Source: Taeniopygia guttata | Lineage: Eukaryota; Chordata; Aves; Passeriformes; Estrildidae | Length of the DNA: 64,000 nt | Reading direction: 5' to 3' | NCBI RefSeq assembly: GCF_048771995.1 | Contig: NC_133060.1 | Location: 1,199,501-1,263,500 of the forward strand | In this document: piece after piece, positions 68 to 64,000 of the stretch | Layout: every line of letters starts with the position of its first letter | Position numbering within the stretch: the first letter of the stretch is position 1 | Notes under the pieces: model-generated | The model's database searches: none | Seen by the model: the letters and a program-made list of their open reading frames with translations, nothing else | What the model was told of the DNA's origin: nothing | Position numbers and translations under genes: made by a program

Positions 68-3000
68 ATGAGCCGCCGCCGCCGCCGCCTCGAGGACCCC
101 CGCGCCGCCATCGAGGCCAAACGGCGCCGCCCGGGGCTGCCGGCGGAGCCTCCGCGGCCCGACGGTACCGGGGGGGACCGGGGAGCGCTGAGGGGGTACC
201 AGGGGGTGTGTGGGGGGGGTCGCGGTTGTGTGTGCGGGGCTGCGGGTGGAATCTGGGGGTTCCCGGTGGGTCCCGGTGGGGTCCCGGTGGGTCCCGGTGG
301 GTTCCGGTGGGTCCCGGTGGGGTCCCGGTGAGTTCCCGGGGGTCCCGGTGGGCTCCTGGTGGGTTTTGGGGGTCCCGGTGGGTTTTGGGGCTCCCGGTGG
401 GTCCCGGTGGGCTCTCGGTGGGTTTCGGGGTTCCCGGTGGGGTCCCGGTGAGTTCCCGGTGGGATCCCGGTGAGTCCCCGGTGGGGTCCTGGTGGGTTTT
501 GGGGTTCCCGGTGAGTCCCCGGTGGGTTCCTGGTGGGTTTTGGGGGTCCCGGTGGGTTTTGGGGGTCCCGGTGGGTTCCCGGTGAGCTCCCGGTGGGTTT
601 TGGGGGTCCCGGTGAGGTCCTGGTGGGTCCCCGGTGAGCTCCCGGTGAGCTCCCGGTGGGTTTCGGCGTTCCCGGTGGGTTCCGGTGGGGTCCCGGTGAG
701 TTCCCGGTGGGTCCCGGTGGGGTCCCGGTGGGTTTTGGGGGTCCCGGTGAGTTCCCGGTGGGGTCCCGGTGGGGTCCCGGTGGGTTTTGGGGGTCCCGGT
801 GAGTTCCCGGTGGGGTCCCGGTGCCCCGGGGAGCGCTGAGGGGGTACCGGGGGGTGTGTGGGGGGGTCGCGGTTGTGTGTGCGGGGCTGCGGGTGGAATC
901 TGGGGGGTCCCGGTGGGGTCCCGGTGGGCTCCCGGTGAGCTCCCGGTGGGTTCCCGGGGTTCCTGGTGGGGTCCCGGTGGGTCCCGGTGGGTCCCCGGTG
1001 GGCTCCCGGTGGGTTTCGGGGGTCCCGGTGGGGTCCCGGTGGGGTCCCGGTGGGTCCCGGGGGTCCCGGTGGGGTCCCGGTGAGCTCCCGGTGGGTTTCG
1101 GGGGTCCCGGTGGGCTCCCGGTGAGTTCTGGGGGGTCCCGGTGGGTTTCGGGGGTCCCGGTGAGCTCCCAGTGGGTCCCGGTGAGCTCCCGGTGGGTTTT
1201 GGGGCTCCCGGTGGGGTCCTGGTGAGCTCCGGTGGGTCCCGGTGGGTTCTGGGTGGAATTTGGGGGTTCCCGGTGGGCTCCCGGTGATCTCCCGGTGATC
1301 TCCGGTGCCCGGTTCCCAGGCAGCCCCGCGGCGGTGGAGGCGGCGCTCGGGGCCGTGGCCGCGCTGTTCCCGCGCCGCCTGTTCGGGGACGCGCTGCCGC
1401 CGCTGCTGCTGCGCCACCAACTGTACAGCCTCGTGCCCGACCGCACCGCCGTGGACCGGCACCTGGTGAGGGACGGGCAGCGACGGGGACACCGGGACAC
1501 CGGGAACAGCACCGGGATACACCGGGATGCCCCTGGGACCCCCACCGGGAACACCGGGAACACCAATGGGACACCAACAGGAACACCGGGAACATGGGAA
1601 TGCCCCCGGGACCCCCCGGGACCCCCACCAGGAACACCGGGAACAGTGGGAACCCCAACGGGAACAACGGGACCCCCGCCAGGAGCCCTGGGACCACTAA
1701 CGGGAACACCGGGAACACGGGAATGCCCCCGGGACCCCCCGGGACCCCCACTGGGAACACCAGGATACACCGGGAACACCAACGGGAACAGCAGGAACAA
1801 CACCGGGAACAGTGGGAACATGGGAATGCCCCCGGGACCCCCACCGGGACCCACACTGGGGACACCGGGACCCCCAACGGGAACAGTGGGATGCCCTGGG
1901 ACCCCCACCAGGAGCCCCGGGACCCCCAACGGGATAACACCGGGAACACCAACGGGATCCTGGGATGGCCCTGGGAACCCCAATGGGATACACCGGGACC
2001 CCCAACGTGAACAACGGGAACACCGGGATGCCCCTGGGACCCCCCGGGACCCCCACTGGGAACAACGGGAACAACGGGAACCCCAATGGGAACAATGGGA
2101 CCCCCAATGGGAACAATGGGAACCCCAATGGGAACATGGGAATGCCCCTGGGACCCCCTACGGGAACCCCACTGGGAACACCGGGAACACCGGGACACCC
2201 AATGGGACCCCGGGATGCCACCAGGACCCCCACCGGGAACACCGGGATGGCCACTGGGACCCCTGGGAGCCACCAAGACCCCCAGGACCCCCCAAATGCA
2301 GCCCCGGGACCCCCCCAGGACCCCCCAGGACCCCACCAAGACCCCCCAGGACCCCCCAGGACCCCCCAAATGCAGCCCTGGGACCCCACTGGGACCCCTG
2401 GGACCCACTAAGACCCCCAGGACTCGACCGGGACCCCACTGGGACCCCCCCAGGACCCCGTTTCCCCCCCAGGACCCCCCTAGGATCCTCCAGGACCCCC
2501 CAGGACCCCCCAAATGCAGCCCCGGGACCCCCCAGGACCCCCCAGACCCTCCAGGATCCCCCAGACCCGCGTTTTTCCCCCAGGACCCCCGAGGACCCCC
2601 CAGAACCCCCCAAATGGCCCCCCAAGAACCCCCCAAACCCAGCCCAGAACCCCCCAGGACCCCCCCAGGACCCCCCAAAGCCCCCCCAGGACCCCCCAGG
2701 ACCCCCCAAGACTCCACTGGGACCCCCCAGGACCCCCCAAACGCAGCCCTGGGACCCCTGGGACCCACTAAGACCCCCAGGACTCGACCGGGACCCCACT
2801 GGGACCCCCCCAGGACCCCCCAGGACCCCCCAGGACCCCTCTGGGACCCCGCAGACCCCCCAAACGCCCCCCCAGGACCCCCCAGACCCCCATTTTTCCC
2901 CCCCAGACCCCCCCAGACCCCCCAGACCCCCATTTTTCACCCCAAACGCCCCCCCAGGACCCCCCAAAGCCCCCCCAGACCCCCCAGACCCCCATTTCCC

Positions 3001-6000
3001 CCCAGGAGCGGCTCCGTGCTGAGGGGCGGCTGCGGCTGCTGCACTTGGGGCTGGGCCCCGACGCGCTCGGGGTGGTCAGTGCGAGACTCTACCGCGAGAA
3101 GGTACCGCAACGGGGCACGGGGGGCACGGGGGGACCCCAGCGGTGACCCCGGACCCCCTGACCCACCCCAGGACCCCCCCGTGACCCCCTGACCCCCCTG
3201 GTGACCCCCTGACCCCCCCCCCAATCCCCCTGGTGACCCCCTGGTGACCCTCTAGGGATCCTCTGACCCCCTCCCGTGACCCCCTGACCCCTTCAATGAC
3301 CTCCTGGTGACCCTCTAGTGACCCCCCGGTGACCCTCTAGTGACCCCCTGGTGACCCCCACAGTGACCCCCTGACCCCCTCAATGACCCCCCTGGTGACC
3401 CCCTGGTGACCCTCTGACCCCCCCGTGACCCCCTGACCCCCTGGTGACCCTCTAGTGACCCCCAGACCCCCCGGTGACCCCCTGGTGACCCTCTAGTGAC
3501 CCCCTGACCCCCCTCAATGACCTCCTGACCCCCTGGTGACCCTCTAGTGACCCCCATCACCCCCACAGTGACCCCCTGACCCCCTCAATGACCCCCTGGT
3601 GACCCTCTAGTGACCCCCTGGTGACCCCCTGACCCCCCCCATGACCCCCTGACTCCTTCAATGACCTCCTGGTGACCCCCCCCAGTGACCCCCAGACCCC
3701 TTTAGTGACCCCCCCAATGATCCCTCAATGACCCCCCCATTGACCCTGTGACCCCTGGGTGACCCTTGGATGCCCCCTGACCCCCAGTGACCCCTGGGTG
3801 ACTCCTGTGTGACCCCTGGGTGACCCCTGACCCCGTTTCAGGTGCTGGCGGCCGTGTCCGGGTCCCCGCGGGAGCCGCTGGTGACCCCCGGTGCCCCCTG
3901 ACCCTTGTGTGCCCCCGACCCCCATGTGACCCCTGGGTGACCCCTGGGTGACCCCTGGGTGACCCCTGACCCCGTTTCAGGCACTGGCTGCCGTGTCCGG
4001 GTCCCCCCGGGAGCCGCTGGTGACCCCTGGGTGACCCCTGACCCCCATGTGACCCCTGGCTGACCTCTGGGTGACCCCTGGGTGACCTCTGACCCCTGTT
4101 TTAGGCACTGGCGGCCGTGTCTGGGTCCCCCTGGGAGCCGCTGGTGACCCCTGGGTGCCCCCTGACCCCTGGGTGACCCCTGGGTGACCCCTGGGTGACC
4201 CCTGGGTGACCTCTGACCCCGTTCCAGGCACTGGCGGCCGTGTCCGGGTCCCCGCGGGAGCCGCTGGTGACCCCTGTGTGACCCCTGGGTGACCCCTGGG
4301 TGACCCCCGGTGACCCCTGGGTGACCCCTGGGTGACCCCTGACCCCGTTCCAGGCGCTGGCGGCCGTGGCCGGGTCCCCGCGGGAGCCGCTGGTTCGGCG
4401 ATTTCTGGAGGTGGCGGTGATGGCGCGGCCGGAGCTGAGCTACGGAGAGAGGGACATGAGGGACATGGGATTTGGGGACAGTGACGTCACGTGAGGGACA
4501 CACAGGGGTCACCCAGGGGTCACGGGGTCACCCAGGGGTCACGGGAGCTGAGCTACGGAGAGAGGGACATGAGGGACATGGGATTTGGGGACAGTGACAT
4601 CACGTGAGGGACACTGGGGACACAGGGATGGGATTTGGGGACACCTGGATGGGGTTTGGGGACATCAAGATGAGCTTGGGGACACTCAGAATGGGTTTGG
4701 GGACACCCAGGATGGGGTTTGGGGACACTGGGGTGAGGTTTGGGACACTGGGGACACCCAGGGGACACCCAGGGGTCACCCAGGGGTCACAGGGATGGGC
4801 TGAGGACACCTAGGGTGGGTTTGGGGACATTGGGATGGGGTCTGGAGACACCTGGATGGGGTTTGGGGACACCCAGGGTGGGATTTGGGACACCAGGATG
4901 GGTTTGGGGACACTCAGGGTGGGTTTGGGGACACCCAGGGTGGGATTTGGGGACACCTGGATGGGTATGGGGACACTGGGGTGGCACTGGGGACACCTGG
5001 GGTGGGTTTGGGACACCCGGGTGGGGTTTGGGGACACCTGAGGTGGCACTGGGGACACCCAGGGTGGGTTTGGGGACACCCAGAATGGGTTTGGGGACAC
5101 CGGGGTTGGGTTTGGGGACACTGGGGTGGCACTGGGGACATCAAGATGGGATTTGGGGACACTCAGGGTGGGTTTGGGGACACTCAGGGTGGGTTTGGGG
5201 ACACCTGGGGTGGCACTGGGGATACCCAGGTGGGGTTTGGGGACACCTGGATGGGGTTTGGGGACACTGGGGTGGCACTGGGGACATCAAGATGGGATTG
5301 GGGACACCCAGGGTGGGATTTGGGGTGGCCGGGGGTGTCCCCAGGGCTGAGCCGTGTCCCCCCCAACGTCCCCAATCCCCCCAATGTCCCCAATGTCCCC
5401 CCAATGTCCCCAGTGTCCCCAATGTCCCCAATGTCCCCAATGTCCCCCCAATGTCCCCCCAATGTCCCCAATGACCCCAATGTCCCCAATGTCCCCAATG
5501 TCCCCAATGACCCCAATGTCCCCAATGTCCCCAATGTCCCCCCAATGTCCCCAATGACCCCAATGTCCCCCCAATGACCCCAATGTCCCCAATGACCCCA
5601 ATGTCCCCAATGTCCCCAATGTCCCCCAATGTCCCCAATGTCCCCAATGCCCCCAATGTCCCCCCAATGTCCCCAATGTCCCCAATGTCCCCAATGTCCC
5701 CCCAATGTCCCCAATGACCCCAATGTCCCCCCAATGACCCCAATGTCCCCAATGACCCCAATGTCCCCAATGTCCCCAATGTCCCCCAATGTCCCCAATG
5801 TCCCCAATGCCCCCAATGTCCCCCCAATGTCCCCAATGTCCCCAATGCCCCCAATGTCCCCCCAATGTCCCCAATGTCCCCAATGTCCCCAATGTCCCCC
5901 AATGTCCCCAATGTCCCCACTGTCCCCTCAGGCAGTTGGTGGCCGTGGGGCTCCTGACCGTGCGGGACGTCGGCAGTTGGTGGGTGGCGGTTCCGGGGGT

Positions 6001-7885
6001 CGGGCGCTTCGTGCGGGCGCTGCTGCGCGGTGAGCACCCACGGGACCCCCGGGGCACCCATGGGACCCCTCAGTGACCCCTCAGTGACCCACGGGACCCC
6101 CGGGGCACCCACGGGACACCCACAGGACCCTTCAGTGACCCCCGGGGCACCCACAGGACCCCCGGGACCCCTCAGTGACACCCGGGGGCACCCACGGGAC
6201 ACCCACGGGACCCCCGGGACCCCTCAGTGACCCACAGGACCCCCGGGGCACCCACGGGACACCCATGGGACCCCTCAGTGACCCCTCAGTGACCCACGGG
6301 ACCCCCAGGGCACCCATGGGACACCCACGGGACACCTGGGGACACCCATGGGACCCCAGGGACTCCTCTGGGACACCTCAGTGACCCCCTGACCCCTCAG
6401 TGACCTCTGGGACACCCACGGGACCCCCGGGACACCCCCGGGACCCCACGGGACCCTTCAGTGACCCCCCAGGACACCCATGGGACCCCCGGGACATCCA
6501 CGGGACCTCTCAGTGACCCACGGGACACCCACGGGACCCCCGGGGCACCCACGGGACCCCCGGGGCACCCATGGGACCCCCACGGGACCCCTCAGTGACC
6601 CCCTGACCCCGCAGTGACCTCTGGGACACCCACAGGACCCCCACGGGACCCCCAGGACCCCTCAGTGACCTCTGGGACAGCCATGGGACCCCCGGGACCC
6701 CTCAGTGACCCCCTGACCCCTCAGTGACCCCCTGACCCCTCAGTGACCCCTCTCTGACCCTTCCCTGACCCTTAGGACCCCTCAGTGACCCCCATGTGAC
6801 CCTGTGTGACCCCGTGTGAACCCTGTGACCCCCGTGTGACCTTGTCTGACCCCATCTGACCCCGTCTGACCCCCGTGACCCCGTGTGACCCCGTGTGACC
6901 CTGTGTGACCCCGTCTGACCCCCGTGTGACCCCATGTGACCCCCATCTGACCCCGTGACCCCGTCTGACCCCTGTGACCCCGTGTGACCCCAGGCCGCCG
7001 GGCGCTGCTGTCTCTGTTCCGTCGGGCGCGGCTGCGGCAGCTGCCCCAGGGGGCGCTGGGGGGGGGCAAAACCCCCCCGGGGGCCGCCCTGGGGGTCCCG
7101 TTCCTGCTGCACGACCTGCTGGGGGAGGGGCGGCTGCAAAGGTACGACCCCTGACCCCTCAGTGACCCCTCTGTGACCCCTGACCCCTCACTGACCCCTG
7201 GGGGTCCCCTTCCTGCTGCACGACCTGCTGGGGGAGGGGCGGCTCCTGAGGTATGACCCCTGACCCCTCGGTGACCCCTCACTGACCCCTGACCCCTCAC
7301 TGACCCCTCACTGACCCCTGACCCCTCACTGACCTCTCACTGACCCCTCAGTGACCCCTCAGTGACCCCTGACCCCTCACTGACCCCTGAGCCCCGGGGG
7401 TCCCGTTCCTGCTGCAGGACCTGCAGTGACCTCTATGTGACCTCTGACCCCTGAGTGACCCCTGAGTGATGCCTTGGTGACCCCAAGTGACCCCTCACCG
7501 ACCCCTTGGTGACCCTGAGTGACCCCTGACCCCTCACTGACCCTGGGGGTCCCGTTCCTGCTGCGTGACCTGCTGGGGGAGGGGCCCTGAGTGACCTCTG
7601 CGTGACCCCTGACCCCTGAGTGACCCCTTAGTGACCCCTGACCCTGAGTGATGCCTGAGTGACCCCTGACCCCTCAGGGACCCCCTAACCCCAAGTGACC
7701 CCTGACCCCTCACTGACCCCTAACCCATGAATGACCCCGACCCCTGAGTGACCCCTGACCCCTGAATGACCCCTGACCCCTGAATGACCCCTGACCCCTG
7801 AGTGACCCCCCGGTGACCTCTGACCCCTCTGCCCCGCAGCATCCCGACCCCCGCGGGTCCCCTGCTGCGATTGGCTGAGCCGTGA
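68..7885 (+). CDS. STK19: STK19 (WHR1), winged-helix nuclear protein, 7 coding exons
   Basis: Exons: 68-164, 1320-1465, 3006-3101, 4354-4490, 5932-6029, 6994-7141, 7840-7885 (TGA). All junctions are GT-AG and in phase; the product is 255 aa, as in mammals (about 254). Matches to human STK19 recalled from memory: a basic N-terminus (MSRRRRRLEDP), then LFPRRLFGDALPP and LYSLVPDRTAVDR in exon 2, LLTVRDVGSWWVAVPG in exon 5, FLLHDLLGEG in exon 6, and an end LLRLAEP against human LLRLPET. Once called a kinase, STK19 has no kinase motifs here either; current work describes three winged-helix domains that bind DNA and act in transcription-coupled nucleotide excision repair with stalled RNA polymerase II. 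The start is the first ATG, just after a C-rich leader. Exon 4 is the most diverged and is bordered by partial copies of itself. Exons 1, 3 and 6 use unusual GTACC/GTACG donors. Confidence 0.95.
165..1319 (+). repeat. G-rich minisatellite filling STK19 intron 1
   Basis: Variants of gtcccggtgggttttgggg with period about 16-22 fill the intron. A roughly 80-base block at 175-255 (ggggagcgctgagggggtac and what follows) recurs at 828-908, so the intron also contains a larger internal duplication. G-rich on the coding strand; no gene seen. Confidence 0.9.
1466..3005 (+). repeat. C-rich minisatellites filling STK19 intron 2
   Basis: Two successive arrays: 1480-2250 of caccgggaacaccgggaccc type, and 2250-3000 of ggaccccccaggacccccca type, the second with local duplications (for example the actaagacccccaggactcg block at 2408 and 2768). 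The first array is close to the reverse complement of the intron 1 array. Long open frames through it are repeat artefacts. Confidence 0.9.
3102..4353 (+). repeat. GTGACCCC array with four decoy copies of STK19 exon 4 5' end
   Basis: A gtgaccccctgaccccct array (3130-3840) passes into four units of 124-140 bases. Each unit carries a CAG or TAG acceptor, 39 bases nearly identical to the start of exon 4, and a GTGACC that could serve as donor: 3842-3880, 3981-4019, 4105-4143 and 4228-4266. The authentic exon follows at 4354. Copy 1 begins with Val like the human exon; the authentic exon begins with Ala. Confidence 0.9.
4491..5931 (+). repeat. STK19 intron 4: G-rich arm then C-rich arm, plus copy of exon 4 3' end
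   Basis: At 4544-4615 the last 60-odd bases of exon 4, with the cacgtgag donor, are repeated once. A gatggggtttggggacaccc array follows (4616-5345), then an (aatgtcccc)n/(aatgacccc)n array with period 9-10 (5355-5925). GGGGACA of the first arm and TGTCCCC of the second are reverse complements. Confidence 0.9.
6030..6993 (+). repeat. STK19 intron 5 CCCGGGACCCCTCAGTGACC-type array
   Basis: Units such as cacccacgggacccccgggg and acccctcagtgacc fill 6040-6780, then tgaccccgtctgaccccgtg units fill 6780-6990. No gene content is seen. Confidence 0.85.
7142..7839 (+). repeat. STK19 intron 6 array with three degraded copies of exon 6 3' end
   Basis: Tgacccctgacccctcac repeats contain three copies of the exon 6 end (ttcctgctgcacgacctgct and flanks): 7198-7252 with a ggtatg donor, 7395-7425 truncated, and 7545-7588 without the donor. 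The authentic exon end is at 7141. Confidence 0.85.
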
Positions 7886-8045
7886 CCCCGACCTCTGACC
7901 TTTGACCTCTGACCGGACCTGCCTGAGGAAGTCGCCCCAAATTTCTGCACGGGGGGCGTGGCCACGGCTGACCACGCCCATTGGGGGCGGGGCTAAGGAC
8001 GAGATGGCCACGCCCACTTTGGCCACGCCCACTTTGGCCGAGTGC

Positions 8046-8051
8046 AATAAA
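8046..8051 (+). terminator. STK19 polyadenylation signal
   Basis: AATAAA lies 161 bases after the STK19 stop codon, at the edge of the AT-richer intergenic repeat. Confidence 0.8.
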
Positions 8052-9320: not shown

Positions 9321-9359
9321 TTCCCAATAATTAATTGATTTCACTTTAATTCGATTTTC

Positions 9360-9474
9360 CCGCCCGCGGGCCCCACTGGCCGTTGCCCCTTTAAGGCCCC
9401 CCCCACGGTGCCATCGCCGCTTTAAGAACAAGCCCCGCCCACCCCCCCTCACGGCGCCTCTTAAAGGGGCCGCG
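9360..9474 (+). promoter_or_regulatory. Presumed NEU1 promoter/5' UTR
   Basis: The unique GC-rich stretch before the NEU1 ATG has a GC-box-like ccccgccc (9433-9440) and three TTTAAG/TTAAAG motifs (9391, 9420, 9462). No canonical TATA box and no CLEAR element (GTCACGTGAC) is visible. The transcription start cannot be fixed. Confidence 0.5.
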
Positions 9475-12400
9475 ATGGGCGCGGGGCGGGCGCGGCCGCC
9501 GCTTTTCCCCTTTTTCCTTTTCCCGTTTCCTTTTCCCTTCCGCTTCCTCCTCCCCTTCCTCCCCTTCCTCCTCCTCCTCCTCCTCCTGCTGCCCCCTCAT
9601 GGCGACGCTCGTTGGGTGGCGACCCCCGACACGGTACCGGCAACGGCGGCGGGGACCGCGCGGGGCGGCGGTTACGGGCCCGTCCCTCAGAGACCCTCAG
9701 GGACCCTCAGGGACCCTCAGAGACCCTCAGAGACCCTCAGGGACCCTCAGAGACCCTCAGAGACCCTCAGAGACCCTCAGAGACCCTCAGGGACCCTCAG
9801 AGACCCTCAGAGACCCTCAGAGACCCTCAGAGACCCTCAGAGACCCTCAGGGACCCTCAGAGACCCTCAGAGACCCTCAGAGACCCTCAGGGACCCTCAG
9901 GGACCCTCAGGGACCCTCAGAGACCCCCGAGAGACCCCCGAGATCCCTCAGAGACCCCCGAGATCCCTCAGGGACCCTCAGAGACCCTCAGAGACCCTCA
10001 GAGACCCCTCAGAGACCCTCAGGGACCCTCAGAGACCCTCAGGGACCCTCAGAGACCCCTCAGGGACCCTCAGGGACCCTCAGAGACCCTCAGAGACCCT
10101 CAGAGACCCCTCAGGGACCCTCAGAGACCCTCAGAGACCCTCAGGGACCCTCAGGGACCCTCAGAGACCCTCAGAGACCCTCAGAGACCCTCAGGGACCC
10201 TCAGAGACCCTCAGAGACCCTCAGGGACCCTCAGAGACCCTCAGGGACCCCTCAGGGACCCTCAGAGACCCCTCAGAGCCCCTCAGGGACCCTCAGGGAC
10301 CCTCAGGGACCCTCAGGGACCCTCAGAGACCCTCAGGGACCCCTCAGGGACCCTCAGGGACCCTCAGGGACCCTCAGAGACCCCCGAGATCCCTCAGGGA
10401 CCCTCAGGGACCCTCAGAGACCCTCAGAGACCCTCAGAGACCCCTCAGGGACCCTCAGAGACCCCTCAGGGACCCTCAGAGACCCTCAGGGACCCTCAGA
10501 GACCCCTCAGGGACCCTCAGAGACCCTCAGGGACCCTCAGAGACCCCTCAGGGACCCCTCAGAGACCCTCAGGGACCCTCAGAGACCCCTCAGGGACCCC
10601 TCAGAGACCCTCAGGGACCCTCAGAGACCCTCAGAGACCCTCAGGGACCCTCAGAGACCCCCGGGACCCCTCAGGGACCCTCAGGGACCCCCGAGACCCC
10701 TCAGAGACCCTCAGAGACCCTCAGGGACCCTCAGAGACCCTCAGAGACCCTCAGAGACCCCCGAGACCCCTCAGGGACCCTCAGAGACCCTCAGAGACCC
10801 TCAGAGACCCCCGAGACCCCTCAGAGACCCTCAGGGACCCTCAGGGACCCTCAGAGACCCTCAGAGACCCTCAGAGACCCTCAGAGACCCTCAGGGACCC
10901 CTCAGAGACCCTCAGGGACCCTCAGAGACCCCCGAGATCCCTCAGAGACCCTCAGGGACCCTCAGAGACCCTCAGAGACCCTCAGAGACCCTCAGGGACC
11001 CTCAGAGACCCTCAGAGACCCTCAGAGACCCTCAGAGACCCTCAGGGACCCCTCAGAGACCCTCAGGGACCCCTCAGGGACCCTCAGAGACCCTCAGGGA
11101 CCCTCAGAGACCCTCAGAGACCCTCAGAGACCCTCAGAGACCCCTCAGGGACCCTCAGAGACCCTCAGGGACCCCTCAGGGACCCTCAGGGACCCCTCAG
11201 AGACCCCCGGGACCCCTCAGGGACCCACAGGGACCCTCAGAGACCCTCAGAGACCCCTCAGGGACCCTCAGGGACCCTCAGAGACCCTCAGGGACCCTCA
11301 GGGACCCTCAGGGACCCTCAGAGACCCTCAGGGACCCTCAGAGACCCTCAGGGACCCTCAGAGACCCTCAGGGACCCCTCAGAGACCCTCAGGGACCCTC
11401 AGAGACCCTCAGAGACCCCCGAGATCCCTCAGAGACCCTCAGAGACCCTCAGGGACCCTCAGGGACCCTCAGAGACCCCTCAGGGACCCTCAGAGACCCT
11501 CAGGGACCCTCAGGGACCCTCAGAGACCCTCAGAGACCCTCAGGGACCCTCAGAGACCCTCAGAGACCCTCAGGGACCCTCAGGGACCCTCAGGGACCCC
11601 TCAGGGACCCCCGGGGACCCCTCAGAGACCCTCAGAGACCCTCAGGGACCCTCAGAGACCCTCAGGGACCCTCAGAGACCCCCGAGATCCCTCAGGGACC
11701 CTCAGAGACCCTCAGAGACCCTCAGGGACCCTCAGAGACCCTCAGGGACCCTCAGGGACCCTCAGAGACCCTCAGGGACCCTCAGAGACCCCTCAGGGAC
11801 CCCCGAGATCCCTCAGGGACCCTCAGAGACCCTCAGAGACCCTCAGAGACCCTCAGAGACCCTCAGAGACCCTCAGGGACCCTCAGAGACCCCTCAGGGA
11901 CCCCCGAGATCCCTCAGGGACCCTCAGAGACCCTCAGAGACCCTCAGAGACCCTCAGAGACCCTCAGAGACCCTCAGGGACCCCTCAGGGACCCTCAGGG
12001 ACCCTCAGAGACCCTCAGGGACCCTCAGGGACCCTCAGAGACCCTCAGGGACCCTCAGAGACCCTCAGGGACCCCTCAGGGACCCTCAGAGACCCTCAGG
12101 GACCCTCAGAGACCCTCAGGGACCCCTCAGGGACCCTCAGGGACCCCAGGGACCCCTCAGGGACCCTCAGGGACCCTCAGAGACCCTCAGAGACCCTCAG
12201 GGACCCTCAGAGACCCTCAGAGACCCCTCAGGGACCCTCAGGGACCCTCAGAGACCCTCAGGGACCCCTCAGGGACCCCTCAGAGACCCTCAGGGACCCT
12301 CAGGGACCCTCAGGGACCCTCAGAGACCCCTCAGGGACCCTCAGAGACCCTCAGAGACCCCTCAGGGACCCTCAGAGACCCTCAGGGACCCCCGAGATCC

Positions 12401-15400
12401 CTCAGGGACCCTCAGGGACCCTCAGGGACCCTCAGAGACCCTCAGGGACCCTCAGAGACCCCCGAGATCCCTCAGGGACCCTCAGAGACCCTCAGAGACC
12501 CTCAGGGACCCTCAGAGACCCTCAGGGACCCTCAGGGACCCTCAGAGACCCTCAGGGACCCTCAGAGACCCCTCAGGGACCCCCGAGATCCCTCAGGGAC
12601 CCTCAGAGACCCTCAGAGACCCTCAGAGACCCTCAGAGACCCTCAGAGACCCTCAGGGACCCTCAGAGACCCCTCAGGGACCCCCGAGATCCCTCAGGGA
12701 CCCTCAGAGACCCTCAGAGACCCTCAGAGACCCTCAGAGACCCTCAGAGACCCTCAGGGACCCCTCAGAGACCCTCAGGGACCCTCAGAGACCCTCAGAG
12801 ACCCTCAGGGACCCTCAGGGACCCCCGAGATCCCTCAGGGACCCTCAGAGACCCTCAGAGACCCCCGAGATCCCTCAGAGACCCTCAGGGACCCTCAGAG
12901 ACCCTCTGAGACCCTCAGAGACCCCTCAGGGACCCTCAGGGACCCTCAGAGACCCTCAGAGACCCCTCAGAGACCCCCGAGATCCCTCAGAGACCCCCGA
13001 GATCCCTCAGAGACCCCCGAGATCCCTCAGGGACCCTCAGAGACCCCCGAGATCCCTCAGAGACCCCCGAGATCCCTCAGGGACCCTCAGAGACCCTCAG
13101 AGACCCTCAGGGACCCTCAGAGACCCTCAGAGACCCTCAGGGACCCTCAGGGACCCTCAGAGACCCCCGAGATCCCTCAGGGACCCTCAGAGACCCTCAG
13201 AGACCCCTCAGGGACCCTCAGAGACCCTCAGAGACCCTCAGAGACCCTCAGGGACCCTCAGGGACCCTCAGGGACCCCTCAGGGACCCTCAGAGACCCCT
13301 CAGAGCCCCTCAGGGACCCTCAGAGACCCTCAGGGACCCTCAGGGACCCTCAGAGACCCTCAGGGACCCTCAGAGACCCTCAGAGACCCTCAGAGACCCC
13401 CGAGAGACCCCCGAGATCCCTCAGGGACCCCTCAGGGACCCTCAGAGACCCCCGAGATCCCTCAGGGACCCCTCAGGGACCCTCAGAGACCCCCGAGATC
13501 CCTCAGGGACCCCTCAGGGACCCTCAGAGACCCCCGAGATCCCTCAGAGACCCCTCAGGGACCCCTCAGGGACCCTCAGAGACCCCCGAGATCCCTCAGG
13601 GACCCCTCAGGGACCCTCAGGGACCCTCAGGGACCCTCAGAGACCCTCAGGGACCCCTCAGAGACCCTCAGGGACCCTCAGAGACCCTCAGAGACCCTCA
13701 GGGACCCCTCAGAGACCCTCAGAGACCCCCGAGATCCCTCAGGGACCCCTCAGGGACCCTCAGAGACCCTCAGGGACCCCTCAGAGACCCCCCAAGACCC
13801 CTCCCCAATGCCCCTTCCCCCCTCTGGGACCCCTCCCCAATGCCCCTTCCCCCCTCTGGGACCCCTCCCCAATGCCCCTTCCCCCCTCTGGGACCCCTCC
13901 CCAATACCCCTTCACTCCCCGGGACCCTTCCCCAATGCCCCTCCACACCCTGGGACCCCTCCCCAATACCCCTCCACTCCCTGGGACCCCTCCCCAATGC
14001 CCCCTCAGCCTCTGGGACCCCTCCCCAATACCCCTCCACACCCTGGGACCCCTCCCCAATGCCCCCTCAGCCTCTGTGACCCCTCCCCAATACCCCTTCA
14101 CTCCCCTGGACCCCTCCCCAATGCCCCTCCACACCCTGGGACCCCTCCCCAATGCCCCCCCACCCCCTCTGGGACCCCTCCCCAATGCCCCCCCACCCCC
14201 TGGGACCCCTCCCCAAAGCCCCTTCCCCCCTCTGGGACCCCTCCCCAATACCCCCTCAGCCTCTGGGACGCCTCCCTAATACCCCTCCACACCCCGGGAC
14301 CCCTCCCCAATGCCCCTCCACTTCCTGGGACCCCTCCCCAATGCCCCTTCCCCCCTCTGGGACCCCTCCCCAATGCCCCTCCACACCCTGGGACCCCTCC
14401 CCAATACCCCCCCACCCCCCGAGACCCCTCCCCAATGCCCCCCCAAACGCTGGGACCCCTCCCCAATACCCCTCAGCCTCTGGGACCCCTCCCCAATCCC
14501 CCCCCACCCCCCAAGACCCCTCCCCAATGCCCCTTCCCCGCTCCGGGACCCCTCCCCAATGCCCCCCCACCCCCCAAGACCCCTCCCCAATGCCTCCCCA
14601 CACCCTGGGACCCCTCCCCAATGCCCCTCCACACCCTGGGACCCCTCCCCAATGCCCCTTCCTCCCTCTGGGACCCCTCCCCAATACCCCTCCACACCCT
14701 GGGACCCCTCCCCAAAGCCCCCCCACACCCTGGGACCCCTCTTCAATGCCCCCTCACACCCTGGGACCCCTCCCCAATACCCCTCCACACCCTGGGACCC
14801 CTCCCCAATGCCCCTTCCTCCCTCTGGGACCCCTCCCCAATACCCCTCCACACCCTGGGACCCCTCCCCAATGCCCCTCCACCCTCTGGGACCCCTCCCC
14901 AATACCCCCCCACACCCTGGGACCCCTCCCCAATGCCCCTCCACCCTCTGGGACCCCTCCCCAATACCCCTCCCCTCCCTGGGACCCCTCCCCAATGCCC
15001 CTCCACCCTCTGGGACCCCTCCCCAATCCCCCTTCCCCCCCCAAGACCCCTCCCCAATACCCCTCCACACCCTGGGACCCCTCCCCAATGCCCCTTCCCC
15101 CCTCTGGGACCCCTCCCCAATGCCCCTCCACACCCCGGGACCCCTCCCCAATACCCCCCCACACCCTGGGACCCCTCCCCAATGCCCCCCCACTCCCTGG
15201 GACCCCTCCCCAATGCCCCCCCCACACCCTGGGACCCCTCCCCAATATCCTTTTCCCCCTCTGGGACCCCTCCCCAATACCCCTCCACCCCTCAAGACCC
15301 CTCCCCAATGCCCCTCCACCCTCTGGGACCCCTCCTCAATACCCCTCCACACTCTGGGACCCCTCCCCAATGCCCCCCCACACCCCGGGACCCCTCCCCA

Positions 15401-26898: not shown

Positions 26899-26921
26899 TC
26901 CCAGCTGGCGGGGCCGAGGCC

Positions 26922-44289
<17,368 letters not shown>

Positions 44290-46060: not shown

Positions 46061-46101
46061 TCTGAGCACATTTGGGGTCCCCAGTCCCTTTTTGGGGTTT
46101 T

Positions 46102-47275: not shown

Positions 47276-47533
47276 GTGAGCCCCGGGAGGATCCCGGGAG
47301 GCGGCGGATGTGTGTGGGGGCCGCTCGCGCATGCGCAGAGCGGAGGAGGCGCTGCCGGACCGGAGCCGCCGCGGCCGCCTCGGAGCGTCGGAGGTGGGGG
47401 AGGGGGAACGGGGGTCCCGAAGGGGTCACGGAGGGTCCCGAGGGGGTCACGGAGGGTCCCGAGGGGGTCACGGAGGGTCCCGAAGGGGGTTCGGGGGGGA
47501 GCGGCCCCGCTGTAACGGCCTCTCACCCCTCAG
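47276..47533 (+). other. BAG6 intron 1
   Basis: Donor gtgagc at 47276, acceptor cccctcag ending at 47533. It holds a short tandem array, gtcccgagggggtcacggag, four copies at 47414-47485. Otherwise unique. Confidence 0.7.
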
Positions 47534-47602
47534 GGCCGCCCGTTGCCGTCGCCGCCGCCGCCGCCCCCCGGTGCCGGTGCCGGTACCGGTGCCGGTGCCG
47601 CC

Positions 47603-50600: not shown

Positions 50601-53600
50601 CTCTGAGGGGGTTTGGGGGGGTTTGGGGGGGCTCTGAGGGGGTTTTGGGGGCTCTGAGGGGATTTGGGGGGGCTCTGAGGGGATTTGGGGGGGGGCTCTG
50701 AGGGGTTTTGGGGGGGCTCTGAGGGGATTTTTCGGGGGTTTTGGGGGGCTCTGAGGGATTTTGGGGGGCTCTCAGGGGGGTCAATAATTTGGGGTCCCCC
50801 CCCCAGATCGACGGCTCCTCCGTCGACGTCCACATCAACATGGACCAGGGCCCCGGCCAGGTGGGTCTGGGGGCGTTTTGGGGGGTCCCGGCCCTGCCCC
50901 CCAATTTTGGGGGTCTTGGGGGGGGCCCGGGGTGACCCCCCCAATTCTGGGGGTCTTACGGGACCCCCAAAATGTCCCCCCAAAAAGCAGAGTGAGCCCC
51001 GAATGCGGCTGCTGGTGGCCCAGCACATGCTGAGGGACATCCAGGGGGTGCTGGCGCAGCTGGAGGTGAGACCCCCAAAATCACCCCAAATTCATCCCAA
51101 AGTCACCCCAAATTCAACCCCAAAATCCCCAAAATTCACCCCAAAAATCCCCCCAAATTCACCACAAAAATCTCCCCAAATTCACCCCAGAAATCCACAG
51201 AATTCACCCCAAAAATCCCCCAAATTCAACCCAAAAATCCCCAAAATTCACCCCAAAAAATCCTCCCAAAACCCATCCAGGGGGTGCTGGCGCAGCTGGA
51301 GGTGAGAGACCCCCAAAAATTACCCCAAATTCACCCCAAAAATCCCCCAAATTCACCCCAAAATCCCCCCAAAATCACCCCAAATTCACCCCAAAAAATC
51401 CCCAAAATTCACCCCAAAAATCCCCAAAATTCACCCCAAAATTCACCCCAAATTCACCCCAAATTCACCCCAAAAATCCCCAAATTCACACCCAAAATCC
51501 CCCCAAATTCACCCAAAAAATATCCAAAAATCCCCCAAATTCACCCCAAATTCACCCCAAAAATCACCCCAAACCCCCCCAAATCCCCCCTTAAACTCCC
51601 CCCAAATCCCCTCAAATGCCCCCAAATTTCCCCAAACCCCCCCAAATTCCCCCCAAATTTCCCCAAATCCCCCCAGATTTCCCCCAAACCCCCCAAATCC
51701 CATTTCCCCTCCCCCCCCCAGGGCTCGGGGGGGTCTCGCTCCCCCCCCCAGGCCGAGGGTCCCCCCCCGGCTCCCCCGGAGCCCCCCGGGCCCCCCCCCG
51801 AGGAGCCGATGGAGGCGGCGGCGCCCCCCGAGACCCCCGAGACCCCCGAGACCCCCGGGCCCGGCCCCGAGGCCGCCAGGTCAGAATTGGGGGGTTTGGG
51901 GGGTCCTGGGGGGGATTTGGGGGTCCCAGGGGGAATTGGGGGGTCCTGGGGGGGTTTTGGGGGGTCCTGGGGGGAATTTGGGGGGTCCTGGGGGGGGTTT
52001 GGGGGGTCCTGGGGGATATTTTGGGGGTCCCAGGGGGGATTTGGGGGGATTTGGGGAGGGGTTCGGGGGTCTTGTGAGGGGTTTGGGGGGTCCTGGGGGG
52101 TTTAGGGGGGTCCCAGGGGGGATTTGGGGGTCCCAGGGGGGGTTTAGAGGGTCCTGGGGAGAATTTGGGGGTTTCAGGAGGATTTTGGGGGGTCCTGGGG
52201 GGGATTTGGGGGGTCCCGGGGGGGGTTTGGGGGGTCCCAGGGGGGATTTGGGGAGGGGTTTGGGGATCCCAGGGGGGATTTGGGGGGTTTTGGGGAGATT
52301 TGGGGGGGTCCCAGGGGGGATTTGGGGGTCCCAGGGGGGAATTGGGGGGTCCCAGGGGGGGATTTAGGGGGTCCTGGGGGGGATTTGGGGGTCCCAGGGG
52401 GGATTTGGGGGTCCCAGAGGGAATTTGGCGGGTCCCGGGGGGGGATTTGGGTGGTCCTCATGGATTTTTGGGGGTCCCTTGGGTGGATTTTGGGGGGATT
52501 TTTTGGGGGGGGGTTTGGAGTCCCTTGGTGGGGATTTTGGGGGTTTTTTGGGATCCTTTGGGGGGTTTTTGGGGTACCCTTGGTGGGGTTTTTTTGGGGG
52601 TATTTTGGGGGGGTCCTGGGGGATTTTGGGGGTCCCTTGGGGGGATTTTGGGGGTCCCTTGGGGGGATTTTGGGGGATTTTTTGGGGGTATTTTGGGGGG
52701 GTCCTGGGGGATTTTGGGGGTCCCTTGGGGGGATTTTGGGGGATTTTTTGGGGGTATTTTGGGGGCTCCTTTGGGGGATTTTGGGGGCGTTTTTTGGGGT
52801 CCCTTGGGACGATTTTGGGTGGGTTTTTTGGGGTTCACTTGGGGTGATTTTGGGGGGTTTTTTGGGGGTCTTTTGGGGGCGTCCTGGGGGGATTTTGGGG
52901 GTTTTTTTGGGGGCTCATTTGGGCGATTTTGGGGGGGTTTTTTGGGGGGTTTTTTGGGGTCCCAGGGGTTTTTTTTGGGGTGATTTTGGGGCTTTTTTTT
53001 GGGGGGGGGGGGGTTGGGTGATTTTGGGGGAGGGTTTTGGGGTGATTTTGGGGGGTTTTTTGGGGGGTCCCTTGGTGGGGATTTTTTGGGGGTCCTGGGG
53101 GATTTTGGGGGGGTTTTTTGGGGATCCTTTGGGGGATTTTTTGGGATTCCTTGGGGTGATTTGGGGGGGATTTTTTGGGGGTCCTTTGGGGGATTTTGGG
53201 GGGTCCCTTGGTGGGGATTTTGGGGGCGTTTTTTGGGGGTCCCTTGGGGGGATTTTGGGGGGGTTTTTTGGGGGTCCTTGGGACGATTTTGGGGGGTATT
53301 TTTTGGGGTGATTTTGGGGGGGTTTTTTGGGGGTCCTTTGGGGGATTTTGGGGGGTCCCTTGGTGGGGATTTTGGGGGGCTTTTGGGGTGATTTTGGGGG
53401 GGTTTTTAGTGATCCTTTGGGGGATTTTGGGGAGGTTTTTTTTGGGTTTTTTTGGGAGGTCCCTTGGGGTGATTTTGGGGGGATTTTTTGGGGGTCTTTT
53501 GGGGGGGTCCTGGGGGGATTTTGGGGGGTTTTCTTTGGGGCTCCCTTGGGGGATTTGGGGGGGTCCTGGGGGATTTTGGGGGCGTTTTTTGGGGTCCCTT

Positions 53601-56600
53601 GGGGGGATTTTGGGGGGGTTTTTTGGGGTTCCCTTGGGGTGATTTTGGGGGGGTTTTTTGGGGGTCTTTTGGGGGGGTCCTGGGGGGATTTTGGGGGGTT
53701 CTTTTTGGGGCTCCTTTGGGGATATTTTGGGGGGGTCCTGGGAGGTTTTGGGGGGTTTTTTGGGGTCCCAGGGGGGTTTTTTGGGGTGATTTTGGGGCTT
53801 TTTTTTTTTGGGAGGGTTTGGGTGATTTCGGGGTGTTTCCCGGGGGTCCCTGACTGACGCCCCCTCCCCACCCCGCAGCCCCCCGAGCCCCGCCGAGCTG
53901 GGGGAGGTGCTGGGGGAGCTGCGGCGCCTGGAGCTGCGCCTGGAGCCGCATCGGCAGCGCTATCGTGACATGCTGGCGGCCGCCGCGACAGCCGACTACG
54001 GCCACGACGTGGGCGGGGGTCCCGGGGGGCTTTGGGGGGGCTTTGGGGGGTCCCGGGGGGGGTTTGGGGCGATTTTGGGGGGTTTTGGGGGTCCCGGGAA
54101 GGGTGGGCGGGGCCATATCGGCAGCGCTATCGCGACATGCTGGCGGCCGCCGCGACTGCCGACTACGGCCACGACGTGGGTGGGGGTCCCGGGGGGCTTT
54201 GGGGGGATTTGGGGGGGATTTTGGGGGGATTTTGGGGGGTTTTGAGGGTCCCAAAAGGGGGTTTGGGGCGATTTTGGGGGGTTTTGGGGGTCCCGGGAAG
54301 GGTGGGCGGGGCCATATCGGCAGCGCTATCGCGACATGCTGGCGGCCGCCGCGACAGCCGACTACGGCCACGATGTGGGTGGGGGTCCCGGGCGGATTTG
54401 GGGGGGATTTGGGGGGATTTTGGGGGGTTTTGGGGGTCCCAAAAGGGGTGGGCGGGGCCATATCGGCAGCGCTATCGCGACATGCTGGCGGCCGCCGCGA
54501 CAGCCGACTACGGCCACGACGTGGGCGGGGGTCCTGGGGGGCTTTGGGGGGATTTGGGGGGGTTTTGGGGGAATTTGGGGCGATTTTGGGGGGTCCCGGG
54601 GGGGATTTGGGGGGATTTTGGGGCGATTTTGGGGGGTTTTGGGGGTCCCAAGAGGGGTGGGCGGGGCCGTATCGGCAGCGCTATCGCGACATGGTGATGA
54701 TATCCTGGGGGAGGGGGGATTTTGGGGGGGTTTTGGGGGGTCTTGAAGGGGTTTTGGGGGTCTCGGGGAGTTTTTGGGGGTCTCAGGGGGTTTTTGGGGG
54801 GGTCTCTGGGGGGTTTTTGGGGGGTCCCTGATGAATTTTGGGAGGATTTTTGGGGGTATCTCTGATGATTTTTGGGGGGGTCCCTGATGATTTTTTGGGG
54901 TGTTTTTTGGGGATCCCTTGGGGGGATTTTGGGGGGGTTTGGGGTTTCCTTGGGGGGATTTTGTGGGGGGGTTTGGGGGGATTTTTCGGGGGTATCCCTG
55001 ATGATTTTTGGGGGTATTTTTTGGGGGGTCTCTGATGATTTCGGGAGGATTTTTGGGAGGTGTTTCTGACGGATTTCGGGGGTGTCTCTGACGATTTTTG
55101 GGGGTGTTCCTGATGATTTTTTAGGGGTGTTTTTGAGGGTGTCTCTGATGAATTTTGGGGGTGTCTTTTAGGGGGTCCCTGATGATTTTTGGGGGGTGTC
55201 TCAGATGATTTTTGAGGAGTTCCCTGCTGATTTTCGGGAGGATTTTTGGGAGGGGTTTCTGACGGATTTTGGGGGTGTCTCTGACGATTTTTCGGGGCGT
55301 CCCTGAGGATTTTCGGGGTGTCTTTGGGGGGTGTCCCTGCTGATTTTCGGGAGGATTTTCGGGGGGTGTTTCTGACAGATTTCGGGGGTGTCTCTGCTGA
55401 TTTCGGGGTCCCCCCCCAGGCGGAGGCGCGGGAGGCGGCGCAGCGGCTGCAGACGCTGGTGGGGGAGGGGCAGCGGCTGGTGGCCAACGCTCTCTTGGCT
55501 CTGTCCGAGCTCCGCGTCAATTTGGGGGGACCCCCCCCCCGCCCCCTGACGCTGGCCCGGCCCCTCCCCCACTACGGACCCCCCATGCTGGTCCAGCAGG
55601 CCACGATCCCCATCCAGGTGGGGCACCCCCAAATTTGGGGGGGGGGGGGGGATTTGGGGGGGTGGGGGGAGGGGCAGGGATGGAGGTATGGGGGGAAAGG
55701 GTTAAAAATGGGGGGGGGGCTTAAATAGGGGGGGGGAAAGGAGCCAAAAATGGGGGGAATGACCCCAAAATATGGGGATGGGGGCATTAAAATGGGGAGG
55801 GGACCCTGAAATGGGGGAGGGGGACCCTGAAATGGGCATGGGGACCCCAAATTGGGGGGGGGGACCCTGAAATGGGGCGGAAAGGACCCAAAAATTGAGG
55901 AAATGACCCAAAAATTGAGGAAATGACCCCAAAAATGGGGATGGGGGCCTTAAAATGGGGGAGGGGAATCTCAAAATGGGGATGGGGACCCCAAAATGGG
56001 GGAGGGGGACCCCTGAAATTGGGGAGGGGACCCCAAAATGGGGGAGTGGGACACTGAAATGGGGGAGGGGGACCCCGAAATGAGGATTGAGACCCTACAA
56101 TAAGGGTAGGGACCCCAAAATAAGGGTGGGGACCCCAAAATGAGGGTGGGGACCCCAAAGTGGGGGTGGGGACCCCAAAGTGGGGGTGCTGGGGGGGGGA
56201 GGGGGGGGTGAAGCCCACCCTGGGGCGTCCCCCCCTGACCCCTCCCCCCCCCCGGCCCCCCCAGATCAACGTGGGCACCACGGTGACGATGGCCGGGAAC
56301 GGGGGTCCCGCCCCCCCCCAAACCCCCCCGAGCTCCCCCCCGGCCCCCCCGCGCCCCCCGGGGACCCCCCCGAGGCGGCCCCGCCCCCCCCGGGCCCCTC
56401 CCCCCCCCCGCCCCCTCCCCCACCCCCGGGGCCCCCCCGCGTGATCCGGATCTCGCACCAGAGCGTGGAGCCCGTGGTGATGATGCACATGAACATCCAG
56501 GGTGAGCCCGGGGACCCCGAAAATGCCCCAAAAACTGACCTGGGGACCCCAAAAATGGCCCTAAAATGGCCCCAAAAACAGCCCCAAAAACTGACCCGGG

Positions 56601-62600: not shown

Positions 62601-63057
62601 CATAAGGGGCGTGGCTGTTAAACGAGGGCGTGGCTTACGAGGGCGGGGGGTCAAGCCACGCCCCTTTAACCCTTTGTGCCCCCCTCTCCCCCGCAGGCCG
62701 CCCAGCCTGGCCCCGCCCCCTCCCCGCCCGAAGCCCCGCCCACCTCCGACCCCTCCCCCTCCCCCACCTCCGCCCCTCCCCCTTCCCCCCCTCCCCCTGC
62801 AGACAGCGCTGGCCCCGCCCCCCCATCCGGAAGCTCCGCCCCTCCGTCTGGAAGCCCCGCCCCTCCATCCGGAAGCCCCGCCCAGGGGGCGGAGCCGCTG
62901 CCCCCCGAGTTCTTCACCAGCGTCCTGCAGGGGGTGCTGAGCTCCATGTTGGGGCCCCTCGGGGCGCCCCCCAGCGGCCCCCCCGAGAGCATCGCCGCCT
63001 TCCTCAGCCGCCTCAGCGGGACCCCCGGGCTGCTGGAGGGGTCCCCGGGGCCCGACG
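47603..63057 (+). CDS. BAG6: BAG6 (BAT3/Scythe), N-terminal three quarters, continues beyond window
   Basis: Coding exons: 47603-47686, 47772-47889, 49505-49680, 50807-50860, 50991-51065, 51722-51879, 53879-54008, 55420-55617, 56265-56501, 57321-57380, 58305-58404, 59073-59182, 60869-60944, 61574-61896, 62697-63057. The UBL domain spans [19 protein letters not shown] through [18 protein letters not shown] and [11 protein letters not shown]. Then [32 protein letters not shown], the DUF3538-type region in the exons at 53879 and 55420, [67 protein letters not shown] and [16 protein letters not shown]. The C-terminal BAG-like domain lies outside the window. BAG6 is the holdase of the tail-anchored protein/quality-control pathway with GET4 and UBL4A. 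Two exons (56265, 58305) each need one extra base to stay in frame. Confidence 0.96.
47890..49504 (+). repeat. BAG6 intron 3 GGGAATGGGAAC array with a copy of the UBL exon end
   Basis: Pentamer/hexamer-based gggaatgggaac/gggaataaacc repeats run for about 1.35 kb (47893-49255). At 48040-48089 they contain a perfect copy of the last 50 bases of the preceding exon (atctaccagggccgcgtgct to the tacag|tacggg donor). From 49260, ggggtcttggggttattttt units run to the acceptor. Confidence 0.92.
49681..50806 (+). repeat. BAG6 intron 4 G-rich array
   Basis: Units of ggggggctctgagggggttt (period about 20-22) fill the whole intron; no exon copies are seen. Confidence 0.9.
51066..51721 (+). repeat. BAG6 intron 6 C/A-rich array with one copy of the exon end
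   Basis: aaattcaccccaaaaatccc units. A copy of the preceding exon end (atccagggggtgctggcgca to gaggtgaga) lies at 51278-51307; the authentic donor is at 51066. Confidence 0.9.
51880..53878 (+). repeat. BAG6 intron 7 G-rich arrays
   Basis: gggggtcctggggggatttg units (51890-52470), then ggggattttgggggtccctt and ggggttttttgggg units (52470-53830). Reverse complement of the ccccaaaaatcccc repeats of intron 6, across the exon 51722-51879. Confidence 0.9.
54009..55419 (+). repeat. BAG6 intron 8 array with four copies of the exon 8 end
   Basis: Copies of the last 60-odd bases of exon 53879-54008 (catatcggcagcgctatcgc through gactacggccacgac plus donor gtggg) end at 54175, 54374 and 54520. A fourth, cut short after cgcgacatg, starts at 54668. 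Between them lie ggggggattttggggggttt units. From 54720, ggtgtctctgatgatttttg units run to the next acceptor. Confidence 0.93.
55618..56264 (+). repeat. BAG6 intron 9 array
   Basis: gggggaccccaaaatggggg/gaccctgaaatgggg units with period about 20-24. Confidence 0.85.
56502..57320 (+). repeat. BAG6 intron 10 C/A-rich array
   Basis: ggccccaaaaactgacccaa and ctggggaccccaaaaatgg units; larger segments recur at about 340 bases. Confidence 0.85.
57381..58304 (+). repeat. BAG6 intron 11 G/T-rich array
   Basis: gggggtctgggggggatttg units, then tttttttggggggttttttg units of only G and T for about 380 bases (57890-58270). Complementary to intron 10 across the exon 57321-57380. Confidence 0.88.
58405..59072 (+). 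repeat. BAG6 intron 12 TGACCCCAAA array
   Basis: tgaccccaactgacctcatc and related 10-11 base units (58410-59040), similar in type to the tgacccc arrays of STK19 introns 3, 5 and 6. Confidence 0.85.
59183..60868 (+). repeat. BAG6 intron 13 G-rich array
   Basis: About 60 units of ggtgggggaggggtttgggg with tccctaaagt inserts, locally organised in larger units of about 121 bases (59420-59760). Dense GGGG runs make the RNA/coding strand a strong G-quadruplex candidate. Confidence 0.9.
60945..61573 (+). repeat. BAG6 intron 14 ACTGGGAGG array
   Basis: actgggagggactggggggg and cactggtttatactgggagg units, 60955-61460; the remainder is unique C-rich acceptor sequence. Confidence 0.88.
61897..62696 (+). 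repeat. BAG6 intron 15 TGCATAATGAGG array
   Basis: About 24 units of 26-28 bases with consensus tgcataatgagggggcgggg followed by cctgtaa, from 61920 to 62560. It has little relation to any other array here. Confidence 0.92.
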
Positions 63058-64000
63058 GTGGGGCTGGGGGGGTTTGGGGGGGTCTGGGGGGGATTTGGGG
63101 GGGATTTGGGGGGACCCCAGGGCTGCTGGAGGGGTCCCCGGGGCCCGACGGTGGGGCTGGGGGGGGCTGGGGGGGATTTGGGGGGCATTTGGGGGGTCCT
63201 CAGGGCCCGACGGTGGGGCTGGGGGGGATTTGGGGAGGTCTGGGGGGCGTTTGGGGGTGTTTGGGGGGGATTTGGGGGGAGTTGGGGGGGATTTGGGGGT
63301 GTCTGGGCGGGATTTGGGGGGGATTTGAGGGGCTTGGGGGGGATTTGGGGGGTCCCCCGGGCTGCTCGAGGGGTCCCCGGGGCCCGACGGTGGGGCTGGG
63401 GGGGTCTGGGGGCTTCGGGGGGGGGTCTGGGGGGGATTTGGGGGGTCCTCGGGGCCCGACAGTGGGGCTGGGGGCTTCTGGGGAGGGTTCGGGGGGGTCT
63501 GGGAGGGATTTGGGGGGTCCCTGGGTCTAACAGTGGGTCTGGGAGATTTGGGGGGGGTTTGGGGGGTCCCCTGGCCCTGAGAGTTGGTCTGGGGGGGATT
63601 TGGGGGGGGTCTGGGGGAGATTTGGGGGTGTTTGGGGCACAGGGCCGGAATTTGGGGCTCACAGGGGGATATTTGGGGGGCACAGGGGTGGAATTTGGGG
63701 TGCACAGGGAGTGTAATTTGGGGGGCACAGGGAATATTTGGGGGGTACAGGGATGGAATTAAGGAACACAGGGGGATATTTTGGGCTCACAGGGGATATT
63801 TGGGGCTCACAGGGGATATTTGGGGCTCACAGGGCCGGAATTTGGGGGGCACAGGGCCGGAATTTGGGGATCACAGGGGATATTTGGGGCTCACAGGGGA
63901 ATATTTGGGGCTCACAGGGAATATTTGGGGCTCACAGGGGGATATTTGGGGCTCCCAGGGCCGGAATTTGGGGGCCACAGTTGATATTTGGGGGGCACAG
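63058..64000 (+). repeat. BAG6 intron 16 array with four copies of the preceding exon end (runs off window)
   Basis: Copies of the exon 62697-63057 end (gggctgctggaggggtcccc to the gacggtgggg donor) lie at 63113-63154, 63201-63213 (short), 63351-63388 and 63445-63456 (short), in gggggggatttggggggtct units. From 63620, gggatatttggggctcacag units run to the window end. Confidence 0.9.

Follow-up and report, generated by a model that had tools for sequence, protein, structure and literature searches.

How do genes remain readable when the introns between their exons have taken up, in tandem, pieces of those same exons? The question is posed by a stretch of zebra finch (Taeniopygia guttata) DNA, the 64-kb window analysed here, in which an earlier note had listed 15 exons with partial copies in an adjoining intron and had counted well over 50 such 'decoy' half-exons. 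The window has a GC content of 62.9% (from base counts), and repeats found by TRF make up 83.5% of it, exons counted in. It holds STK19, NEU1, DDX39B and part of BAG6, all four on the + strand; in mammals these are genes of MHC class III. The contig that carries the matching models of NEU1 and STK19 is 4,884,911 bp long, and chicken chromosome 16 has been classed as a dot chromosome; for our window, placement on a dot chromosome is only a candidate one.

Integrity of the host genes

Thirty-seven exons were placed by hand together with their splice sites, the start of BAG6 exon 11 (E11) being uncertain; NEU1 E1 (about 9475–9636) was located via the NCBI zebra finch model instead. The spliced DDX39B product aligns with the human protein without a gap over 428 of 428 residues. 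That of NEU1 E2–E6 is identical to the NCBI zebra finch model (100% over 378 aa) and resembles sialidase-1 (8du5; E 4e-124), while the STK19 product is identical to zebra finch isoform X5 (100% over 255 aa) and resembles STK19 structures (E 2.7e-60). In BAG6, E1–E8 encode the ubiquitin and BAG6 Pfam domains and match BAG6 structures. The exons of DDX39B and STK19 and E2–E6 of NEU1 are unaltered by the copies that lie near them, and no extra segment derived from copies appears in the three spliced products. The claim that the host proteins stay intact thus holds for these genes; for BAG6 it holds only in part, since the gene is recognised but its reading frame breaks in E9.

This break in BAG6 E9 (56265–56501) falls in a C-rich stretch at about 56300–56440, and an assembly error, a small extra intron and a true change cannot be told apart as its source. 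Elsewhere, NEU1 intron 1 (9684–15823) consists almost wholly of two arrays, one of a 10-bp unit repeated 405 times (4.1 kb) and one of a 31-bp unit repeated 65 times (2 kb).

Partial exon copies in the adjoining introns

We screened 36 introns with the published chicken settings (blastn-short, matches of at least 20 nt and more than 42.1 bits). Three of these introns are partial, namely intron 1 of NEU1 and of DDX39B, whose starts were set arbitrarily, and the last one of BAG6, which meets the end of the window. Across the 36 introns, 56 matches exceeded 42.1 bits, all of them proximal, with no distal and no minus-strand match, and every one of the 56 copies the exon edge that faces its host intron. 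The matches belong to 17 edges of 15 exons and occupy 15 of the 36 introns. When the same screen was run on shuffled sequence, 10 mononucleotide shuffles yielded no match, and 10 first-order Markov shuffles yielded no proximal match and one distal match. All 15 exons on the earlier list are confirmed by this screen, with its controls free of proximal matches.

A junction probe (35 nt, made of 10 intron and 25 exon bases, with up to 7 edits allowed) picked out 56 copies that span the junction, spread over 15 of the 69 edges, in a run made without controls. An earlier run of the probe, which left out the BAG6 E15 donor, had detected 52 copies in proximal position, belonging to 14 of the 68 edges, and two distal matches, with no match in its three Markov controls. 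'Well over 50' is therefore a fair count of the half-exons. A sensitive Smith–Waterman screen of all edges was not used for counting, as exon parts score up to 41.5 against unrelated introns. Donor edges are affected in 12 of 34 cases and acceptor edges in 5 of 35 (Fisher p 0.054), a difference in which we claim no excess.

The copies are 22–70 nt long (median 39.5) and at least 84.7% identical to their exon, 31 of the 56 being identical throughout. The largest share of any exon that is copied is 45%, a figure that bears on whether these are tandem exon duplications or a form of intron gain. Intron gain by tandem genomic duplication works through a direct duplication that carries splice sites, and direct duplications carrying splice sites are what the introns contain. 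Yet there is no whole-exon copy among them, and the spliced products of DDX39B, NEU1 and STK19 hold no segment that copies have added, so that either kind of duplication seems to us scarcely credible as an explanation.

Copies along the four genes

In STK19, E4 (4354–4490) has copies on both sides. Its acceptor-side array (3822–4268) comprises four copies of the acceptor with 41 exon nt, all four with AG, and its donor side (4544–5189) has one strong copy (4544–4614; 60 exon nt and the GT) together with five weak fragments, none of them individually significant. The donor side of E6 (6994–7141) carries three copies (7196–7617) with 55, 34 and 55 exon nt, in which the donor dinucleotide is GT, is not covered by the match, and is GC in place of GT, respectively. 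In NEU1, E4 (20139–20321) is preceded by an acceptor-side array of seven copies (18873–20025), each with the acceptor and 70 exon nt, and E5 (22380–22605) is followed by a single donor-side copy (22724–22805) with about 64 exon nt and the GT. These copies, like all those described below, lie on the + strand.

DDX39B has copies at seven exons. Two donor-side copies of E2 (26898–27132) carry 22 exon nt and the GT (27194–27586). E3 (28452–28579) has two acceptor-side copies (27952–28314; acceptor and 34 exon nt) and two diverged donor-side ones (28671–29247; 52 exon nt, with GT and TT), of which one passes 42.1 bits. On the acceptor side of E4 (29686–29778) are four copies that have no AG (28856–29562; one passes 42.1 bits), and on that of E5 (32314–32497) an array of 18 (30762–32288), 17 with AG and 15 passing 42.1 bits. 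The remaining three exons are copied from the donor side: E8 (38601–38710) in an array of three copies with 42 exon nt and the GT (38853–39250), E9 (41033–41177) in an array of eight with 59 exon nt and the GT (41295–42669), and E10 (43359–43506) in two copies with 52 exon nt and the GT (43631–43889), one of which passes 42.1 bits.

All BAG6 copies are donor-side. E2 (47772–47889) has one copy of 50 exon nt with the GT, 100% identical (48038–48107), and four weak fragments nearby; E5 (50991–51065) has one of 28 exon nt with the GT (51274–51324); E7 (53879–54008) has an array of four, with 67, 67, 67 and 34 exon nt, three of them with GT (54109–54696); and E15 (62697–63057) has an array of four junction copies, two of which pass 42.1 bits (63111–63471).

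Contact with the exon edge

The copied piece usually does not end at the exon edge but runs over it into the intron, giving a unit made of intron motif, splice site and exon edge, or the mirror image of this. Of the 56 matches, 46 (82%) come within 1 nt of the exon border, and 13 of the 17 edges have at least one match that does so. AG or GT is kept in all 52 junction copies of the earlier probe run, a tally biased by the choice of copies for their likeness to a probe that contains the junction. Among the looser copies, the splice dinucleotide is missing from every one of the four at DDX39B E4 and from some at STK19 E4 (donor), STK19 E6, DDX39B E3 (donor) and BAG6 E2. The four DDX39B E4 copies begin 7–9 nt inside the exon and show no AG at the matching place. 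Thus the statement that copies always start or end exactly at the edge and carry the splice site describes most of them, and fails for DDX39B E4. The copies of this exon (28856–29562) look as if a founding copy had lost its acceptor AG before amplification.

Shared breakpoints and microhomology

Within the larger arrays, the copies have their exon-side breakpoint in common. This is the case for seven of seven copies of NEU1 E4 (at 70 nt), eight of eight of DDX39B E9 (59 nt), four of four at the STK19 E4 acceptor (41 nt) and three of three of DDX39B E8 (42 nt); all four copies of BAG6 E7 start at the 67-nt breakpoint, and 17 of the 18 copies of DDX39B E5 end at exon nt 30–34. Such common breakpoints fit one founding capture followed by amplification. 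The weak fragments at the STK19 E4 and BAG6 E2 donors have a breakpoint unlike that of the strong copy, and seven of the 17 edges have just one copy over threshold, so expansion is not shown for every edge. The spacing of the NEU1 E4 array varies between 142 and 203 bp.

The end of the NEU1 E4 half-exon, GGGGTCT, is also present in its intron motif. We counted, array by array, the bases shared by the exon side of the breakpoint and the native intron motif, and set them against junctions simulated at random within that exon and intron. The breakpoints had been placed by hand, those of NEU1 E5 and DDX39B E10 being moved a few bases past mismatches; of 16 arrays, 14 could be tested, with BAG6 E15 standing outside this set. 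Summed over the 14 testable arrays, microhomology amounts to 43 bases against 18.9 ± 4.7 expected (P 5e-5), or against 15.4 expected in an alternative run. Copy junctions must be excluded from the test, as the sum is inflated when they are left in (61 against 15.8). By array, p is below 0.05 in four of 14, and two of 14 have no microhomology. The data favour microhomology-guided capture, but no single array proves it beyond doubt. The earlier idea of slippage across the junction followed by expansion is consistent with the common breakpoints of the larger arrays and with the microhomology of the group, though not with every array, and so is partly supported.

G-quadruplex motifs number 410 on the sense and 320 on the antisense strand, against 265 and 131 in Markov shuffles. 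Their density is 14.0 per kb in introns with copies and 12.4 in those without; as they hardly separate the two classes of intron, we do not use them as evidence on mechanism.

Divergence among the copies

The seven copies of NEU1 E4 show three single-base differences in 7 × 70 nt, and the three copies of DDX39B E8 show none in their exon parts. Could assembly or polishing have inflated collapsed repeats and so produced a false number of copies, or even false copies? Some arrays, such as that of DDX39B E8, have exon parts without any difference, the introns are extreme repeats, the frame break in the C-rich stretch of BAG6 E9 could be an assembly error, and the study of chicken introns by Hron et al. 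(2026; Genome Biol Evol evag038, PMC12954441) warns of local technical artefacts. Against this, several arrays (DDX39B E9, STK19 E4) have substitutions between their copies, the spacing in NEU1 E4 is variable, the repeat structure of chicken PHF8 introns was confirmed in raw nanopore reads (PMC12954441), and exon-edge repeats occur in protein models of two other birds (see below). We therefore regard an artefact of assembly as very unlikely.

The decoys differ from their exons at all codon positions: in 54 copies, compared over stretches set by hand and with the weakest copies excluded, unique differences number 29, 16 and 14 at positions 3, 2 and 1. A mild third-position excess would be expected if the real exon had also changed silently after the duplication.

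Strength of the decoy splice sites

Splice sites were scored with a matrix built from the window's own real sites. By this measure the real donor is equalled or outscored by 19 of 26 decoys, whereas only 7 of 28 decoy acceptors equal or outscore theirs. The acceptors differ by array, the fraction being 5/7 for NEU1 E4 (decoys 6.9–15.2, real acceptor 7.7), 1/4 for STK19 E4, 1/2 for DDX39B E3 and 0/15 for DDX39B E5. In several arrays, therefore, the strength of a site is not enough to tell the real exon from its decoys. The splicing machinery presumably has to choose the right copy, which may be distinguished by being paired, over the whole exon, with the splice site at the opposite end. In the zebra finch protein models considered (two of NEU1 and six of STK19, all of them gene models and representatives of 90% clusters), decoy use was found in 0 of 8.

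Some of these models depart from the expected exon chain. NEU1 isoform X2 (P0005) skips exactly E4 (20139–20321), the exon preceded by seven decoy acceptors. Three STK19 models, P0122 (X1), P0129 (X4) and P0130, stop E4 near 4451, some 39 nt before its end and at a place without a GT, possibly reflecting another haplotype or a model confused by repeats. P0123, P0129 and P0130 skip STK19 E3 (3006–3101), an exon with no captured copies of its own.

Exon-edge repeats in other birds

A scan for 12-residue self-repeats was applied to 168 listed homologues (120 of 362 for NEU1 and 48 of 48 for STK19), with exon numbers in other birds inferred from peptide similarity. It flags three of the 168 listed, all birds, and two birds among them have self-repeats at exon edges: NEU1 of Eudromia elegans (P0019) contains four tandem copies of the start of E2, and STK19 of Passerculus sandwichensis (P0136) repeats segments from the end of E4 and the start of E5. 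In both public models, decoy half-exons have probably been annotated as coding. The repetitive N-terminus of Myiozetetes STK19 is not an exon edge, and the Haemorhous NEU1 model seems, by eye, to read an off-frame fragment of E4. Compared with zebra finch, NEU1 E2 and STK19 E5 are different affected edges, while STK19 E4 and NEU1 E4 overlap. The scan replaced a blastp test of exons for internal repeats, which returned mostly motifs that we take to be the sialidase Asp-box, along with fused-looking models, and missed both birds. The Camarhynchus DDX39B model (P0279) was too garbled to use.

Recurrence in other birds might suggest that the half-exons have a function, selection maintaining them as alternative or poison splice sites, and so might the AG or GT of all 52 scored junction copies, the five of seven NEU1 E4 decoy acceptors that outscore the real one, and the exact skipping of E4 in isoform X2. 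However, that AG/GT tally comes from copies chosen by their likeness to a junction-containing probe, the DDX39B E4 copies have no AG, and all 15 scored decoys of DDX39B E5 are weaker than the real acceptor. The zebra finch models use none of the decoys, the differences from the exon are spread over all codon positions, and the affected edges partly differ between species. We consider retention by selection very unlikely as well.

A proposed origin

Very probably, the window shows exon stuttering as defined by Hron et al. (2026), in zebra finch genes whose introns are rich in GC and filled with minisatellites, and we propose that it arises by the following steps. A minisatellite beside a splice junction would mispair, in a shifted register, with a short piece of the exon that resembles its motif, and slippage, template switch or unequal exchange would produce a tandem duplication that spans the junction. 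The unit so formed, of intron motif, splice site and exon edge, would expand and contract with the minisatellite, so that later copies would share their exon-side breakpoint. Purifying selection would spare only the events that keep one full exon beside its other splice site, and the copies would for this reason be half-exons facing the intron. Splicing would normally take the copy that can be paired across the full exon (exon definition), which would leave most decoys silent. Within this scheme, the initial slippage or exchange, the filtering by selection and the part played by exon definition are inferences.

One can go further, in a direction that we think rather unlikely, and suppose that a motif-like exon stretch matching the intron minisatellite is what starts capture, that one capture per edge is amplified, and that the decoys, in many cases no weaker than the real sites and probably differing in number from one individual to another, make the efficiency of splicing in essential genes vary heritably. 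If this were true, the essential genes affected would include DDX39B, which itself encodes a helicase of the spliceosome, and the NEU1 isoform that skips E4 would be an example of such splicing variation.

Comparison with exon stuttering and other known systems

The earlier note knew of no named description of this process; one exists. Exon stuttering was described and named by Hron et al. (2026) from 236 chicken introns. According to that paper (PMC12954441), it is located preferentially on dot chromosomes, where it occurs in 190 of 5,572 annotated chicken introns (3.4%), intron-length polymorphism between individuals is a main feature, and more than 90% of copied sources lie within 1 base of the exon border; local repeat expansions in other birds are also mentioned. 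What we describe has in common with it the direct tandem repeats, placed in the neighbouring intron, of one end of a coding exon together with its donor or acceptor, as well as exon parts of tens of bp, an exon that stays intact and introns full of local tandem repeats. Thus the window, which represents one haplotype, fits the tested features of the definition, with a looser contact with the border (46 of 56 matches, or 82%, against more than 90% in chicken).

Our case differs in species, zebra finch here and chicken there, and in density. Copies affect 15 of 36 introns (42%) in the window and 3.4% of chicken dot-chromosome introns (Fisher p 5e-13), a density about 12 times as high that is overstated by a window picked for looking striking and annotated by hand. 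The names DDX39B, BAG6, NEU1 and STK19 are absent from the main text of PMC12954441 (the gene list of its Fig. S5 lies outside this statement). The word 'microhomology' is likewise absent from that main text, and microhomology at breakpoints is tested here. Of the mechanism the authors say that they can only speculate, and the microhomology and common breakpoints found here provide sequence evidence on this open question. The instability of bird genomes named in 2026 is hereby extended to a songbird and to several essential genes that lie close together. Such genes are a natural setting in which to learn how the spliceosome selects one of several near-identical splice sites, and they warn that genes of this kind are easily mis-annotated.

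Two other systems invite comparison. Unlike intron gain by tandem genomic duplication, the process seen here makes no new intron, the duplicates lying inside an existing one. Intronic VNTRs that affect splicing, such as the ABCA7 VNTR (PMC5954066), resemble our arrays in being intronic tandem repeats with a possible effect on splicing, but our arrays have the exon edge as part of their repeat unit. The phenomenon is real and, since 2026, of an ordinary kind; its density is unusual, and it is informative on mechanism.
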